Part shown: positions 18,382 to 26,384 of the stretch, one piece after another | How the letters are laid out: each line of letters starts with the position of its first letter | Numbering within the stretch: the first letter of the stretch is position 1 | DNA from: Candidatus Ruthia sp. Plio_17_S18 | GTDB taxonomy: Bacteria > Pseudomonadota > Gammaproteobacteria > PS1 > Pseudothioglobaceae | DNA length: 64,000 nucleotides | NCBI GenBank assembly: GCA_021730105.1 | Contig: CP072538.1 | Location: forward strand, 372,001-436,000 | Direction: 5' to 3' | The notes under the pieces: model-generated | Seen by the model: the letters and a program-made list of their open reading frames with translations, nothing else | Database searches by the model: none | Told to the model about the DNA's origin: nothing | Made by a program: the position numbers and the translations under genes

Positions 18382-18725
18382 ATGCCAATGTCTAAAATAA
18401 AATTAGTACGCAATTCAAAGATGAAGCACAGATTTCAACGCAATCCCAATCTTGGTTATGAACCTGAAGGCTCTTTTGGCTATGTGCGCTATTTAGAGCA
18501 TGGTGTGCCAAGCCCTTTAATGCGTTGGCATTATCATGAAGAGTATGAGTTGCATTACATTGTTAACACTTGTGGCAAAGTATTTGTGGGTGATTATATT
18601 GATCGTTTTAAGCCAGGTAATTTAATCTTGACAGGGCCGAGATTACCACATAATTGGCTTTCAACTGATATGCCAAAAGAGGGCGTTAAAATTCGTGATA
18701 GAGTGATACAGTTTTCTGATGAGAC
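18382..18725 (+). pseudogene. mtlR: AraC-family activator (MtlR type), N-terminal half only
   Basis: The open stretch encodes the N-terminal cupin sensor domain of an AraC-type regulator: GYVRYLEHGVPSPLMRWHYH, EEYELHYIVNTCGKVFVGDY and PGNLILTGPRLPHNWLS. In Pseudomonas MtlR has this architecture and activates mtlEFGKDYZ. At about 18725, within IQFSDETFL, homology ends and fructokinase sequence begins in another frame. The whole DNA-binding domain (about 180 residues) is therefore gone. Linking it to mannitol rests on its position in the operon. Confidence 0.78.
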
Positions 18726-18730
18726 TTTTC

Positions 18731-19207
18731 TTGGAGGCAAAAGCAGGGAGCTCGCCTTTTAATGTTGCTATAGGTTTGTCGAGGCTTGATAGGCGAAGTG
18801 CTCTTTTAACAGGCATTTCAAATGATTTTTTAGAAGAGCGCCTGATGGCAGTACTTGCTAAGGAGCGAGTGTTGGCCGAATTTATACAAAGAAAAAATGC
18901 GCCCACTACGACGGCATTGGTTCAGTTAGATGATAAAGGGTTTCCTGTTTATAGTTTTTATGGCTTAGGTGCTGCGGATAGGTTGTTAACTACTAGTGAT
19001 GTTGATATTGTCTTAAATGAAAAGACAGTTCTGCATCTTGGCTCCTACTCTATTGTGGTTCAACCCACAGCAGATGCGTTGTTTTCATTAGTGAAGAAAT
19101 ATACTCAGCGTTGTTTAATCTCTCTAGATCCTAATATCCGCCCAATAATTGAACCTAATATGGATATATTGGAGAAAGCGACTCAACCTACTCATTCCAT
19201 TGATTGA
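18731..19207 (+). pseudogene. mtlZ: Fructokinase (MtlZ type, PfkB family), truncated at both ends
   Basis: PfkB-family sugar kinase relic that would phosphorylate the fructose made by mannitol dehydrogenase. Conserved pieces are AGSSPFNVAIGLSRLDRRSA, LLTGISNDFLEERLMA, NAPTTTALVQLDDKGFPVY, SFYGLGAADRLL and LISLDPNIRPIIEPN. Roughly the first 30 residues are lost at the mtlR junction. It stops at 19207 after about 160 of roughly 310 residues, so the C-terminal half with the catalytic Asp and ATP site is absent. Confidence 0.84.
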
Positions 19208-19446: not shown

Positions 19447-20361
19447 TTAAAAACTATAAGAAACTTTTAGCGTATTAGTAGTCACTGACGATGCGTCTTT
19501 TAACTTATTGCTTTCAAGAGAGATTTTTACACCCTCTGTTGGCATAATACTATAAGTAATACCTGTTTGTTTTTTATTGCCTGTTGCTGCATTTTCCTTG
19601 CTATAAGCTAAGGTTATTGAAGCATCTGTTGCCATGATTTGGTGTGCATAACTTGCTTCAATATGTGAAGCAGATTTTTTAACGCTAGTATCTTTGTTAG
19701 TTTTAACGTTTTCATAAACAACACTCAAGCCATTACTTACCTTGTAATCCAAGCGAATGGCTTTTGAGGCGCCAGCATCTTTTGTGCCGTCACTAGAAGC
19801 ACCATCAAAATAGTAAGCGCCTGCATTGAATGCCCCGTTAGTATAATTAGCTGATATGCCTTTACTTTTTCCTTGGTCTTTTTCGTTGGTATAAACTGAA
19901 ACTTTAATATCACCCAATGTTTTGGATAATATAAGTCCATTTCTATTGCCTTTATCAGAGTCAATATCTTTGGTTAAAGGGTTTGTTACCATGCCTGTGG
20001 CATAAGAACCAAAAGGCGTGCCAATTTTGCCGATTGAGGCATCAAAGTTTGTATTATGGTAATTAATCGCTGCAGCATCTAAAATTATGTCATCTTCTGT
20101 CGCTTTATCATCCCCACCTTTTCTTTGAATTGTAAAAAAGCCATCGAATTGTTCATTAACTGCGTGTGAAATGTGAAGTTTGATATCGCCTGGGGCGGTG
20201 CCTACTCCTTTTGATGCGTGTTTAACCTGAACCACACCACCAATTTTTGTCGCTGCTCTGGCTGCTTCTAATGCAGTAACACGCTCTCTTAGAGTCTCTG
20301 CAAATGCTTGTGATGTGCCTATAAGTAATAAGCTTAGTGTTATAATTTCAATTTTTTTCAT
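19447..20361 (-). CDS. Outer-membrane porin (LbtU-like beta-barrel)
   Basis: Signal peptide MKKIEIITLSLLLIGTSQAF-AE, a short LRERVTALEAARAA coiled stretch, then a barrel of alternating strands ending in the C-terminal KVSYSF; a final Phe is the usual outer-membrane insertion signal. About 304 residues. Closest in style to the LbtU-type porins common in marine gammaproteobacteria; the substrate is unknown. The start is the ATG at 20361, because it gives a proper signal peptide and has a strong GGGGGG ribosome site 7 nt before it; an upstream ATG at 20376 in the same frame would add five residues. It is intact, beside a fully decayed operon. Confidence 0.82.
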   Translation of the reverse strand: MKKIEIITLSLLLIGTSQAFAETLRERVTALEAARAATKIGGVVQVKHASKGVGTAPGDIKLHISHAVNEQFDGFFTIQRKGGDDKATEDDIILDAAAINYHNTNFDASIGKIGTPFGSYATGMVTNPLTKDIDSDKGNRNGLILSKTLGDIKVSVYTNEKDQGKSKGISANYTNGAFNAGAYYFDGASSDGTKDAGASKAIRLDYKVSNGLSVVYENVKTNKDTSVKKSASHIEASYAHQIMATDASITLAYSKENAATGNKKQTGITYSIMPTEGVKISLESNKLKDASSVTTNTLKVSYSF

Positions 20362-20428
20362 TATTATACCCCCCATATTTATTAGAAAATTAGTTTTTAT
20401 TGAGTGAAAGATTAACCAGCAAAACTAA

Positions 20429-20770: not shown

Positions 20771-22951
20771 TTGTTCGCACTATTTTATATGATTCTTAAC
20801 CCATATTTGCATTTAAAAAAAAAACCACCTGCATGGGTTTGGGTGTTTGTTTTTTTACTGTCTATTTCTGGCACGTTTTATTTAGGACTTAACCCTGATT
20901 TTATTGCACACTGGTGGGGATATTTGGTTGGGTTTAATATCATCATGAGTCTGATTGCTATTTATTATGTTTATGTGGATGTATTACGCCTTAATCGCGA
21001 TGTTAAGGGTGATATTGTAGGCTCTAAATTTACTTGGTCGTTTGTTAAAATTGTGCCGGTTTTGGTGATTGTGCCAGTGTTATCTTTTTATATATTCTCA
21101 TTTCAAACGATTCAAAACAATGTTAAAGATTCAGAAAAAGCTTTTAATGTGTTCAGTCAAAATTTTATTCAACAAGTTAATGGCTTGTATAGCGGTGTGC
21201 AAAAAATTAGAGATGAGCGTTATACCGAACAAACAAAAAGATTACTAACTTTAATTACCTCTTTTGGCAGCTTTCAAAAAAATGCTGAAAATTATGCACA
21301 AAGTATGCAGATATTTCTTGATGGTTTGATTGATAAAGGCTGGGCTTGTCAAATTACATTGTTAAATGCTCAAGAAGAGGTGGTTGTCAAAACAGCAGAT
21401 GTGATTAATTGCATGGCAATTGAAGAGCAGCCATTGCCAGGTGCACAGCCACGTATGATTAACGAAGACGAGACTGCAAACGTTATTCAAGTAAAAATGT
21501 CAACACATTATCTTTCAAATACATCAAACCAAGATTTATTTGTGGTTGATGTGGTGTATGCAACTGACCCAGGGCTTTTAGGGTTTTTGTCACAAGTTAG
21601 AGGGTTTGCTAATGCAGCACAAAACATTAAATTTGAAATCAACACTTCAATCACTCAAAAACGTTTTATGATTGATTTTTCATCCACCGTACTACTGGCA
21701 ATACTGAGTGCGCTTATGGTGGTTTTTCGCATGATTGAACGGTTAATGAAGCCGCTGAATAACTTATCCATCGCCACGCAAGAAATTGCCAAAGGAAATT
21801 ATGATGTACGTATTGCCCAACAAAAAGAAAGTGAAGATGTGCGTAGTTTGATTGAACAATTTAACACCATGTCTAGACAAATCAAGGCATCTCGTGAAGG
21901 TTTAGATACGCACAATTTGTATTTGGAAACGATTCTTAAATATTCTTATGGCGTGATTGCGCTTGATCAAAATAGGAAGATACGCCTCATTAATCCAGTG
22001 ATTGGTACAATGTTGGGCATTAAAGATGAAAAGCTATTCATTGGTAAAAAATGCAACACTATTGTTGATCGCTATTCAAATTTAGAACCTCTGTTTTTAA
22101 TGACACAAGATAAATTTAAACGAGATGAAAGTGAATGGAGTGAAGAGATTGAAATTACTTTGGCTAGTCAACATTTGTTATTATCGTGCCAAGGCGCGGC
22201 ACTTAAAAATGACAATGAAACCTTGGGCTTTGTCATTGTGATTAAGGACATTTCGAAATTACACAGGGCTCAGAAAAAGGCTGCTTGGGGGGAAGTGGCA
22301 AAGCGCATGGCACACGAAATTAAAAATCCACTAACACCTATTTTATTATCTGCTCAGCGTCTTAGAAATAGATTGATGGGCTCTTTAGAGGGTAAAGATT
22401 TAGACATTATTGACAAAACTACAAATACCATTATTCACCAAGTTCAATCCATGGACACCATGGTAAGTGCATTTGCTGATTATGCTAACACGCCCCAAAT
22501 TGAAAGGAAGTCTTGTGATTTGAATGCGTTAATTAAACAATCTATCGCACTTTATGATGCACAAAGTAATATGAATATTGATTTTGATTTGTCTGCTGAT
22601 ATTCCACTACTACTTTTAGATAGTCATAGTATTTCTAGAGTGTTAATTAATTTAGTGAAAAACGCCAGTGAAACAATGGTTGACGGGCGTGATTTAAACG
22701 TTAAAATTACGACAGAATATTTACCAAAACAAGCCATTGTGCGTTTAAGTATCATAGATGATGGCGATGGCTTTGATAAGTATGTACTTGATAGGGTGTT
22801 TGAGCCTTATGTGACGACCAAAATTAAAGGTAGTGGTTTAGGCATGGCAATTGTGCAAAATATTATTAAGCAGCATGCAGGTGAAATATTTGCTGGCAAT
22901 GTTAAATCGCATGGTGCTATGATTACCATTGAGTTTAATTGTAAAAAATAA
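20771..22951 (+). CDS. ntrY: Sensor histidine kinase NtrY
   Basis: Membrane histidine kinase of the NtrY/NtrX two-component system, linked in other proteobacteria to nitrogen and redox control. 726 residues. N-terminal transmembrane segments (about 15-120), a periplasmic stretch, another membrane helix near 300, a HAMP domain (about 320-375, PLNNLSIATQEIAKGNYDV), a PAS domain (about 380-490), the HisKA box KRMAHEIKNPLTP (His near 515) and an HATPase domain with NLVKNASET, DDGDGF and GSGLGMAIV. Start is TTG at 20771 or, equally plausible, ATG at 20789. The response regulator gene follows 13 nt later. Confidence 0.93.
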   Translation: MFALFYMILNPYLHLKKKPPAWVWVFVFLLSISGTFYLGLNPDFIAHWWGYLVGFNIIMSLIAIYYVYVDVLRLNRDVKGDIVGSKFTWSFVKIVPVLVIVPVLSFYIFSFQTIQNNVKDSEKAFNVFSQNFIQQVNGLYSGVQKIRDERYTEQTKRLLTLITSFGSFQKNAENYAQSMQIFLDGLIDKGWACQITLLNAQEEVVVKTADVINCMAIEEQPLPGAQPRMINEDETANVIQVKMSTHYLSNTSNQDLFVVDVVYATDPGLLGFLSQVRGFANAAQNIKFEINTSITQKRFMIDFSSTVLLAILSALMVVFRMIERLMKPLNNLSIATQEIAKGNYDVRIAQQKESEDVRSLIEQFNTMSRQIKASREGLDTHNLYLETILKYSYGVIALDQNRKIRLINPVIGTMLGIKDEKLFIGKKCNTIVDRYSNLEPLFLMTQDKFKRDESEWSEEIEITLASQHLLLSCQGAALKNDNETLGFVIVIKDISKLHRAQKKAAWGEVAKRMAHEIKNPLTPILLSAQRLRNRLMGSLEGKDLDIIDKTTNTIIHQVQSMDTMVSAFADYANTPQIERKSCDLNALIKQSIALYDAQSNMNIDFDLSADIPLLLLDSHSISRVLINLVKNASETMVDGRDLNVKITTEYLPKQAIVRLSIIDDGDGFDKYVLDRVFEPYVTTKIKGSGLGMAIVQNIIKQHAGEIFAGNVKSHGAMITIEFNCKK

Positions 22952-22964
22952 ATAAAAGGAAGGG

Positions 22965-23543
22965 GTGATGGATGACACATTAGCCATTGGTAGAATTCTT
23001 ATTATTGATGATGAGAGTATTAATGCAGAAACTATGATGGATACATTGGAAGATGTTAATTATCATGTGGTTATTGTAGCTAATGCCAGTCATGCTAAAA
23101 CTATTATAAAAGATCAAATTTTTGACCTGGTTATGATGGATGTTTGGATGCCTGGTCAGGACGGTATGTCATTGTTAGAAGAATGGACTCAAGCTGGTTT
23201 TTCTACACCGATTGTGATGATGTCTGGGCATGCAGAACATCAAGATGTGGTCAAGGCAATTAAACTAGGTGCAGTTGATTTTTTGAAAAAACCACTACAT
23301 GATATTTTGCCATTGGTACGTAAAATTCTATCTGAACAAGTACTAGATAAATCTGAACACACTATTAGTGGCATTGAATTTAATGCACCTCTTAAAGAGG
23401 CAAGAAATATTTTTGAGGTACAATATTTCAATCACCATCTGCAAGAGAACAACCATAATATTGCCAAGGTTGCAACCCTTGCAGGGTTAGAAAGAACCAC
23501 TTTATATCGTAAGTTAAAAGATTTAGGCATTGATAAAAAATAA
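22965..23543 (+). CDS. ntrX: NtrX-type response regulator lacking the AAA+ domain
   Basis: 192 residues: receiver domain (about 9-130) with the acidic pocket DD in ILIIDDES, phospho-acceptor Asp59 in VMMDVWMPG, and the conserved Lys in FLKKP, followed directly by a Fis-type helix-turn-helix (about 150-190; AKVATLAGLERTTLYRKLKD). Canonical NtrX is about 450 residues, with a sigma-54-activating AAA+ domain between these parts. Here that domain is absent, although the linker PLKEARNIFEVQYFNHHL is what normally joins AAA+ to HTH. The frame is intact with a GGAAGGGG ribosome site, so it is probably a working short regulator acting like PrrA/RegA rather than with sigma-54. Confidence 0.88.
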   Translation: MMDDTLAIGRILIIDDESINAETMMDTLEDVNYHVVIVANASHAKTIIKDQIFDLVMMDVWMPGQDGMSLLEEWTQAGFSTPIVMMSGHAEHQDVVKAIKLGAVDFLKKPLHDILPLVRKILSEQVLDKSEHTISGIEFNAPLKEARNIFEVQYFNHHLQENNHNIAKVATLAGLERTTLYRKLKDLGIDKK

Positions 23544-23549
23544 AATAGT

Positions 23550-24923
23550 ATGAAAATCTTAATTTTAGGTGCAGGACAAGTTGGTGCAACATTAGCCAAA
23601 TATTTGGGTTCAGATAATGATAATGACATTACCATTATTGATAAAGATGAGTCTAATTTATCAAACCTACAACGTCATTTAGATGTTAAAACTGTGTGTG
23701 GTCATGCTTCATATCCTAATGTTCTAGAGGAGGCCGACATTAAGAACATGGACATGGTCATTGCGGTAACGCGATCAGATGAAGGCAATATGTTGGCTTG
23801 TCAGATGGCACACACTTTGTATCAAGTAGGGAAAAAAGTAGCTCGCATACGCACCGCTGAGTATTTGCACAGAAAGGAGTTATTTGCACCTGATGCTATT
23901 CCAATTGATTTTATTATTACACCTGAAGAATTGGTGACCAACTATATTAAGCGTGTTGTTGAAGAGTCGGGTGCTGAGCAGGTGTTTGAGTTTGAAAATG
24001 GGTTGGTTCAATTGGTAGAAACTAAAGCTTATGCGGGCACACCAATTGTAGGTCATCCTATTAAAGATCTACATGAACATTTGCCAAAAACACGAGTGCG
24101 TATTGTTAGCTTGTATCGCAACGGTAAAGCTATTCCCGCATCAGGAGAGACGGTCATTCGTGATGGTGATCGGGTTTATTTCATGACCAAAAAAGACAGT
24201 ATTTCTAAAGTGATAAAGCAATTCAGGCGTGAAGATAAAGCTTATAGAAATATTATTATTGCAGGCGGTGGGCGTATTGGTCTTAATTTGGCAAAGTTCT
24301 TAGAAAAGGATCACCATGTTCGCATTATTGAGATGAATAAAGAGCGTGTTAGTAAGATTGCTGATGAGCTTGATAATACATTAGTGCTTTTAGGCAACGC
24401 TTCTGACGAGGAATTGCTATTAGAAGAGGGTATTGAAAGTACAGATTTATTTTTAGCCCTAACGGATTCTGATGAAATTAACGTTATCGTTTCAATTTTA
24501 GCCAAACGCTTAGGCGCGCATAAGACGATTGCTTTGGTTAAACGTAATGTCTATGAAGATTTAGCCAAGCAAAGTGAAGATGTGGACATGGTCATATCGC
24601 CCGACCAAATTACAGTGAGTGGTATTTTAGCACATATTCGCAAGGGTGATACTATGATGGTGTACTCATTGCGCCAGGGTAAGTCAGAGGCAATTGAAGT
24701 TATTGTACATGGTGATAAACATCATTCGGATGTTGTGGGTAAAACCATTGAACAAATCAATTTGCCAGATGGTGTAGTCGTAGGTTCAGTTGTTAGAAAT
24801 CATGAAGTTATTATGGGGTCGCGTACTTTAGTTATCAAGGAAGGAGACCATGTGTTATTAGTGTTAACTGATGTGAGTAAAATTCATGAAGTGGAAGAGT
24901 TGTTTGAAGGGTATTTTGATTAA
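23550..24923 (+). CDS. trkA: Trk potassium uptake system regulatory protein TrkA
   Basis: Cytoplasmic NAD(H)-binding subunit that gates the TrkH/TrkG K+ channel. 457 residues with the double arrangement: Rossmann domain 1 (MKILILGAGQVGATLAKYL), RCK-C domain 1 (about 140-220), Rossmann domain 2 (IIIAGGGRIGLNLAKFLE) and RCK-C domain 2 ending at the C-terminus. It starts 6 nt after the ntrX stop, and trkH begins 12 nt after its own stop, so ntrY-ntrX-trkA-trkH form one likely operon. Confidence 0.97.
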   Translation: MKILILGAGQVGATLAKYLGSDNDNDITIIDKDESNLSNLQRHLDVKTVCGHASYPNVLEEADIKNMDMVIAVTRSDEGNMLACQMAHTLYQVGKKVARIRTAEYLHRKELFAPDAIPIDFIITPEELVTNYIKRVVEESGAEQVFEFENGLVQLVETKAYAGTPIVGHPIKDLHEHLPKTRVRIVSLYRNGKAIPASGETVIRDGDRVYFMTKKDSISKVIKQFRREDKAYRNIIIAGGGRIGLNLAKFLEKDHHVRIIEMNKERVSKIADELDNTLVLLGNASDEELLLEEGIESTDLFLALTDSDEINVIVSILAKRLGAHKTIALVKRNVYEDLAKQSEDVDMVISPDQITVSGILAHIRKGDTMMVYSLRQGKSEAIEVIVHGDKHHSDVVGKTIEQINLPDGVVVGSVVRNHEVIMGSRTLVIKEGDHVLLVLTDVSKIHEVEELFEGYFD

Positions 24924-24935
24924 TTTTTATTAAAC

Positions 24936-26384
24936 ATGCAATTTAGTATTGTTTTTAAAACCATTGGCTTATTGCTAATGGTATTCAGTCTAACGCAATT
25001 ACCACCCATTATTGTTGACTTTATTTATGCTCAAAACGAAGCCTCATCTTTTTTCGCCGCTTTTTCTTTAACATTGTTAAGTGGCTTTGTTTTATGGTTG
25101 CCTTTTAGAAAATCAACCAAAAATTTTAGGATTCGTGAAGGTGTGCTAGTAGTAGTGAGTTTTTGGTTTGTTTTATCCTTGTTTGCGACCACGCCATTTT
25201 TATTATCCACCTCTTTGGATATGTCTTTTAGTGATGCATTTTTTGAATCCATGTCAGGACTGACAACCACAGGTGCAACAGTACTTTCTGGGATAGATGA
25301 TTTACCTAAAGCACTGTTGTATTATCGTCAGCAACTTCAATGGCTGGGGGGCATGGGTATTATTGTTTTAGCAGTTGCTATCTTACCCATGTTAGGGGTT
25401 GGTGGTGTGGAGCTTTACCATGCAGAATCAAGCGGTATTTCTAAAGAAAGACTCATGCCAAAATTAGCTCAAACCGCTAAAGCACTATGGAAAATTTATA
25501 TTAGCTTGACCGTTGTTTGTGCGTTGGGTTATTACTTTGCAGGCATGAATGGGTTTGATGCAATTGGACATAGTTATGCAACTATTGCCATCGGTGGTTT
25601 TTCTACTCATGATGCGTCAATTGGCTATTTTAATTCTTATGCGATTGAGCTGGTAGCAATGATATTTATGCTTTTGGCAGGTATTAATTTTTCACTACAT
25701 TTTCTTGTTTGGCGTAAGCGTAATATATTTATTTATTTGAAAGATTCTGAATTCAAAACCTATTTGTTAATTCTAAGTACATCAATTTTATTAGTACCAA
25801 GTTATTTGTTTGATAAGGGCTACTATCAAACCATTGAAGAGGCGATTAGACATGGCGTATTTCAGAGTATTTCCATTATGACCACCACAGGCTTTGTCAG
25901 TACAGATTTTTCATTATGGCCATCCGTGTTGCCCGTGTTTTTAATTTTTGGTAGTTTTGTTGGTGCTTGTGCTGGCTCTACGGGTGGTGGCATTAAAGTT
26001 GTTAGAATATTATTGATGTTTAAATTAGCCATGAAAGAGATTAAAAAATTTATTCATCATAATGCACAAATCAATATCAAGCTTAATCAGAAAAGTGTTC
26101 CTGAGAATACCCTAGTTTCAGTTTGGGGTTTTTTCTCTTTATACGTAATTTCCTTTGTTATGATTATGATTATGTTGATGTTTACTGGTCTTGAACAGGT
26201 GAATGCGTTTTCAGCAACTGCAGCATCTATTAATAACCTAGGTCCAGGTTTGGGTGATGTTGCTGCTAATTATGGCAATATTAGCGATACAGCAAAATGG
26301 ATTCTAAGTTTTTCAATGTTATTAGGACGTCTAGAAATATTAACCTTAATGGCTTTGTTGCATAAGGCTTTTTGGCGTTTTTAA
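24936..26384 (+). CDS. trkH: Trk potassium uptake system membrane protein TrkH
   Basis: Inner-membrane K+-translocating subunit of Trk. 482 residues with about ten membrane segments and the four degenerate P-loops of the family; the first filter is seen in SGLTTTGATVLSG, and later ones in IGGFSTHDAS, MTTTGFVSTDF and NLGPGLGDVA. GSTGGGIKVVRILL marks the conserved intracellular gate loop. Works with TrkA encoded just upstream. Converges on dinG with 14 nt between the stops. Confidence 0.97.
   Translation: MQFSIVFKTIGLLLMVFSLTQLPPIIVDFIYAQNEASSFFAAFSLTLLSGFVLWLPFRKSTKNFRIREGVLVVVSFWFVLSLFATTPFLLSTSLDMSFSDAFFESMSGLTTTGATVLSGIDDLPKALLYYRQQLQWLGGMGIIVLAVAILPMLGVGGVELYHAESSGISKERLMPKLAQTAKALWKIYISLTVVCALGYYFAGMNGFDAIGHSYATIAIGGFSTHDASIGYFNSYAIELVAMIFMLLAGINFSLHFLVWRKRNIFIYLKDSEFKTYLLILSTSILLVPSYLFDKGYYQTIEEAIRHGVFQSISIMTTTGFVSTDFSLWPSVLPVFLIFGSFVGACAGSTGGGIKVVRILLMFKLAMKEIKKFIHHNAQINIKLNQKSVPENTLVSVWGFFSLYVISFVMIMIMLMFTGLEQVNAFSATAASINNLGPGLGDVAANYGNISDTAKWILSFSMLLGRLEILTLMALLHKAFWRF

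Follow-up and report, generated by a model that had tools for sequence, protein, structure and literature searches.

NtrX regulators that lack the central AAA+ domain have already been described in betaproteobacteria. In PMC13001219, which cites Bonato et al. 2016, betaproteobacterial NtrX is described as being without AAA+, and Herbaspirillum seropedicae NtrX and Bordetella PlrR are the published AAA-less proteins named. In Bordetella, PlrR has the partner PlrP (DUF4390), and genetic evidence points to an essential role of phosphorylated PlrR (PMC13001219). We analysed a short ntrX gene of Candidatus Ruthia sp. Plio_17_S18 within a stretch of 64,000 nucleotides (contig CP072538.1, positions 372,001 to 436,000), which is called the window here.

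The frame at window positions 22965-23543, which the original prediction had taken to be intact, is indeed open and intact, but its first codon, GTG 22965, is probably not the start. In relatives, a non-start Ile codon occupies this position and the next codon is Met. Together with the Shine-Dalgarno-like sequence AGGAAGGGG, this suggests that translation most likely starts at ATG 22968. The product consists of a receiver and a Fis-type HTH (Table 1). Pfam detects Response_reg and HTH_8/Fis (residues 156-186, E 5e-7), and no AAA+ match is found between the two; the direct junction of receiver and HTH that had been proposed is thus confirmed. In the predicted structure, a normal receiver is followed by a stretch of low confidence (residues 127-135), and the helices after it are a long one (143-161) and the two of the HTH (166-173 and 177-186). 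Among the NCBIfam profiles, NtrX (NF051870) is the best match. The score is 103 bits, with the best stretch over the receiver, as compared with a full-length cut-off of 600 bits, and the central AAA+ domain of canonical full-length NtrX is lacking. Judged from its sequence, the short protein is an NtrX by descent without the canonical full-length architecture.

The kinase gene directly upstream encodes a full-length NtrY-type protein of 726 aa with HAMP, PAS, HisKA and HATPase domains, as had been expected. In the alignment to gammaproteobacterial NtrY, it keeps HEIKNP and the ATP-binding motifs. The window locus has the arrangement typical of ntrX, with ntrY adjacent and trkAH downstream. Among 61 named loci, trkA adjoins the short ntrX in all, and NtrY is upstream in all but one, where the contig ends. 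In many relatives, the ntrX stop and the trkA start overlap by 4 bases. Two other sites near ntrY should be noted. At 18382-19207, there are two short overlapping frames, one AraC-like by eye without a Pfam match and the other a pfkB carbohydrate kinase fragment; they are probably remnants of two truncated genes. At 19447-20376 on the minus strand, divergent from ntrY, lies a gene for a porin-like protein of 309 aa without a Pfam match, a relative of which is found at the same site in one of the 61 named relatives (L133). It is a possible NtrYX target.

Table 1. Features of the ntrYX-trkAH locus (positions in the window)
Feature	Position	Strand	Description and basis
ntrY	20771..22951	+	membrane sensor histidine kinase, HAMP-PAS-HisKA-HATPase, phospho-acceptor His in HEIKNP; Pfam and NCBIfam
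Shine-Dalgarno-like AGGAAGGGG	22957..22965	+	ahead of ATG 22968; sequence read directly
short ntrX	22968..23543	+	191 aa, no AAA+; frame from GTG 22965 one codon longer; start (most likely) chosen from relatives
receiver domain of short NtrX	22995..23300	+	Response_reg (PF00072), residues 11-112 counted from GTG 22965, E 6e-25
phospho-acceptor D59 of short NtrX	23139-23141	+	residue number counted from GTG 22965
flexible linker, place of the missing AAA+	23331..23375	+	about residues 123-137; low confidence, relaxed substitutions, gap in the 5m7n match
NtrX-type C-terminal dimerisation helix and Fis-type HTH (PLKEARNIFE...LERTTLYRKLKDLGI)	23376..23540	+	HTH_8, HMM scores, predicted helices
trkA	23550..24923	+	potassium transporter regulatory subunit; NCBIfam TrkA, 638 bits; conserved linkage
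trkH	24936..26384	+	potassium transporter; NCBIfam TrkH, 538 bits; conserved after trkA

In a search of solved-structure sequences, full-length Brucella NtrX (5m7n) aligns with the short NtrX in exactly two stretches, 10-119 with 5-117 and 141-189 with 406-454, leaving out 5m7n residues 118-405. The receiver tree comprised the short NtrX, 41 gammaproteobacterial full-length NtrX proteins, 18 RegA-type regulators and 26 other activators. In this tree, RegA is a distinct clade (100/100), and the short NtrX lies inside the NtrX clade (100/99), where the Thioglobaceae receivers are on a long branch and their placement is only approximate. One activator with a long branch (L111) is placed next to the short forms, a kind of join that, according to a warning of the program, may be false. 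HMMs were built solely from full-length NtrX, solely from RegA or solely from other activators, with the short forms left out. All 31 short forms prefer the NtrX HMMs with both the receiver and the HTH. The window receiver scores 122 bits with the NtrX HMM versus 70 bits with that of RegA, and the window HTH scores 85.8 bits with the C-terminal HMM of full-length NtrX versus 21.4 bits with RegA. The C-terminal part also keeps the NtrX signature, L-x-E-A-R-x-x-F-E and ERT-x-LYRKL, and the order ntrY-ntrX-trkA-trkH is common to many gammaproteobacteria with full-length NtrX.

The two-piece Brucella match, the receiver tree, the HMM scores and the gene order agree and, at the level of sequence comparison, confirm that the receiver and the HTH both derive from NtrX, not from RegA/PrrA. 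The origin from NtrX by way of AAA+ loss, as originally predicted, is borne out in this respect for both domains, by the tree for the receiver and by the HMMs for each. Replacement of NtrX beside ntrY by a RegA/PrrA/RoxR-type regulator, with a likeness to NtrX that is positional only, would explain why the size and domain order equal those of RegA, and the whole-length matches, in sequence and in fold, include the RegA-like 3rqi. In the fold search, receivers dominate and NtrX is not separated from RegA. The trees and HMMs, however, reject such a replacement: both domains score far higher with the NtrX HMMs, RegA is a separate clade and the C-terminal signature is kept, which makes it very improbable.

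The NtrX of the window is the only one found in its genome (G000). Five receiver-domain matches were obtained there, in frames of 243, 211, 195, 194 and 135 codons, of which the 135-codon frame contains three stops, and no second, full-length NtrX, the possibility of which had been raised, is among them. One of them, a 194-aa receiver protein (L225:567-1151; G000:C1:306366-306950), is ANTAR/NasT-like by eye, has a CBS-domain-like neighbour and is conserved in the genus. It was rejected as a second short NtrX, since its C-terminus is ANTAR-like by eye without a Fis HTH. A response-regulator remnant with three stops lies outside the window at G000:C1:212402-212719 (L228; G000:C1:211500-213800). 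Genomes of the genus have three to five receiver-domain matches each, some of which are remnants. A 180-codon NtrX in G344 was rejected as a further short form because its frame runs off the contig end.

The order of the window is represented in the genome collection by one family of 83 genomes, Thioglobaceae/SUP05, which includes Ca. Ruthia, Ruthturnera, Vesicomyosocius, Bathymodiolus thiotrophic symbionts, Thioglobus and Pseudothioglobus. A short-NtrX match is found in 77 of these genomes; among the 49 good-quality ones, none lacks it. The original prediction had asked whether relatives share the short form, and they do; the loss is not specific to this genome, being family-wide with a published betaproteobacterial counterpart (PMC13001219). 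In 21 family sequences, down to 58% identity to that of the window, D16, D59, S87 and K109 are invariant and D15 is conserved in at least 90%. The pairwise dN/dS values of the short ntrX with three relatives are 0.06, 0.22 and 0.19, and in the comparison with one of the three, constraint is strongest in the HTH and relaxed in the linker. These values indicate that the short NtrX is under purifying selection.

A decaying gene, truncated in the course of genome shrinkage in a symbiont, might be considered, as the genome is just 1.23 Mb and holds other decayed genes, among them the remnant with three stops at G000:C1:212402. However, the short form is also carried by the free-living Thioglobus and Pseudothioglobus relatives, and it is therefore not a product of symbiotic genome reduction. 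Its family-wide occurrence, the invariant active-site residues and the dN/dS values well below 1 reject the pseudogene reading, which is barely credible, and uphold the earlier view that the gene has been remodelled rather than left to decay.

The original prediction further proposed a switch from sigma-54 activation to direct DNA binding through AAA+ loss. This proposal is not upheld, since GAFTGA is already absent from all 41 full-length gammaproteobacterial NtrX proteins, as compared with its presence in 20 of the 26 other activators. For the most part, the 41 proteins were chosen among those matching the query best, and they are not a random sample, and the count is that of one regular expression, checked by an alignment with 12 NtrX proteins, in all of which the GAFTGA loop is deleted. 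Walker A (GxxxxGK) is also missing in 12 of the 41. Caulobacter NtrX likewise has no GAFTGA (PMC10274813). The absence of GAFTGA from full-length NtrX, together with deletion of the loop in all aligned proteins, suggests that the ancestor of the short NtrX was probably not a sigma-54 activator, and that the sigma-54 contact was lost before, or independently of, the AAA+ domain.

As had been suspected, rpoN is missing from the genome of the window. The short NtrX thus has neither of the marks of a bEBP, an AAA+ domain with GAFTGA and rpoN in the genome. No sigma-54 activator domain was found in this genome; two Sigma54_activat matches, inside frames of 864 and 752 codons, were rejected as activators because they are weak and probably belong to Clp ATPases. 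The suggested tie between AAA+ loss and rpoN loss does not hold. In the family, rpoN is above the cut-off in 12 of the 83 genomes, and all 12 carry the short NtrX. Most rpoN-bearing betaproteobacteria-like genomes also carry a short NtrX, and most short-NtrX genomes of that group have rpoN. Since rpoN-bearing genomes of both groups have the short form, rpoN loss is not the cause of AAA+ loss. Two rpoN-bearing genomes of the same genus as the window (G043 and G044) also have a separate activator bearing GSFTGA. The distribution of rpoN in the family is patchy. Its distance from a sigma-54 activator gene is about 3 kb in G043, G044 and G054, a spacing that would suit a small cassette, whether acquired or retained.

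A phylum-wide search revealed AAA-less NtrX in frames of 218-289 codons beside ntrY in many genomes of the class, most of which are taken to be betaproteobacteria, given their make-up and the literature. In a careful tree of NtrY and NtrX, the Thioglobaceae and betaproteobacterial short forms are apart. A single AAA-less ancestor of the two, through descent or ntrYX transfer, instead of two losses, is not rejected by the AU test (p 0.65 for the joint short-form clade, the constrained tree being slightly better than the unconstrained quick tree). Against this, only about 6% of bootstrap trees contain a branch with all full-length forms on the same side, full-length NtrX is retained in many lineages of gammaproteobacteria and the median linker distance is 35 residues in Thioglobaceae versus 75 in the betaproteobacteria-like forms. 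In addition, DUF4390 (PlrP) is detected in none of the 83 Thioglobaceae genomes, whereas it is present in the betaproteobacteria-like genomes tested (12 of 12 outgroup genomes positive as the control). A shared AAA-less ancestor is thus possible but doubtful. A further AAA-less NtrX, in G166 (L047 / L108), follows an rpoC-like end without ntrY nearby. Its HTH is too diverged for Pfam, and DUF4390 is on another contig of this genome. It groups with the NtrX proteins of G174 and G430 (99/88), its nearest relatives among the genomes sampled, whose AAA+ regions lack Walker A and the loop, and it looks like a separate loss.

We consider the case evenly poised that NtrX loses AAA+ repeatedly and independently, in Thioglobaceae, betaproteobacteria and at least one other lineage, that of G166. 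The order would be the sigma-54 loop, then the ATP site and finally the whole domain, each loss leaving a RegA-like regulator, and the Thioglobaceae kinase would run without PlrP. What looks new is that an AAA-less NtrX is fixed in Thioglobaceae without the DUF4390 partner; in the open-access literature, no paper was found on NtrYX together with SUP05.

The phospho-relay residues and the HTH of the short NtrX are intact, the protein has no AAA+ domain, and the genome of the window has no rpoN. As the best explanation, which we hold with good confidence, the protein would be an NtrX-derived regulator that lost AAA+ after earlier erosion of the sigma-54 loop and that acts, when phosphorylated, directly at sigma-70-type promoters. 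The missing contact loop suggests that activation could probably do without AAA+ before the domain was lost. NtrY may phosphorylate D59, judging from the conserved residues, and the phosphorylated receiver would promote pairing of the C-terminal Fis-type domains via the C-terminal helix. The paired domains would bind sites already recognised by NtrX, and sigma-70-type promoters would be regulated directly, as by RegA/PrrA and presumably by PlrR in Bordetella. The essentiality of phosphorylated PlrR indicates that an NtrX without AAA+ can serve as a vital regulator that depends on phosphorylation (PMC13001219).

Potassium uptake and envelope functions are reasonable first guesses at what the short NtrX controls. 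The former is suggested by the linkage to trkAH and, in many relatives, by the 4 bases over which ntrX and trkA overlap, and envelope functions have been reported for Rhodobacter NtrYX (PMC7240162). The same near-universal linkage and overlap would also suit a protein whose main action is on the linked trk genes, or that works through protein contacts, rather than a transcription regulator of wider scope. This is unlikely, as the HTH is the most constrained part of the protein and trkA and trkH are dispensable for PlrSR-dependent persistence in Bordetella (PMC13001219). The chief interest lies in the staged, possibly repeated loss of AAA+ in NtrX: a member of the NtrC superfamily can turn into a simple two-domain regulator while its kinase partner and gene neighbourhood are kept. 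The name NtrX in gammaproteobacteria should not be read as meaning a sigma-54 activator or a nitrogen regulator. Thioglobaceae are abundant sulfur oxidisers of the ocean and symbionts of animals (clam or mussel), and the conserved NtrYX is a good lead on their regulation, since genomes of the window's genus have so few receiver-domain matches.

The short NtrX can be compared with three known systems. Full-length NtrX (Brucella 5m7n and the gammaproteobacterial proteins) shares the receiver, the C-terminal helix, the HTH and the ntrY partner, and the gammaproteobacterial genes also share the order through trkA and trkH. The full-length proteins keep AAA+, unlike the short NtrX, although those of gammaproteobacteria have no GAFTGA. 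RegA/PrrA/ActR/RoxR resemble the short NtrX in design, as originally predicted, with a receiver joined to a Fis HTH in the same order and about 180-190 aa in all, and by this analogy the two probably share a working principle. They are, however, a separate clade with low HMM scores and not close kin, and neither domain of the short NtrX is of the RegA type. The known partner kinases on the RegA side, RegB/PrrB/RoxS, belong to another kinase family. The betaproteobacterial AAA-less NtrX, such as Herbaspirillum NtrX and Bordetella PlrR, has the same arrangement as the short NtrX: an NtrX receiver joined to an NtrX-type Fis HTH without AAA+, next to an NtrY-type kinase gene, and sometimes with trkAH downstream. 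The two differ in the linker, which is short in Thioglobaceae and long and mostly Ala/Pro-rich in the betaproteobacteria-like forms, in DUF4390/PlrP, and in rpoN, which is mostly present in the betaproteobacteria-like short-NtrX genomes but in few of the Thioglobaceae.
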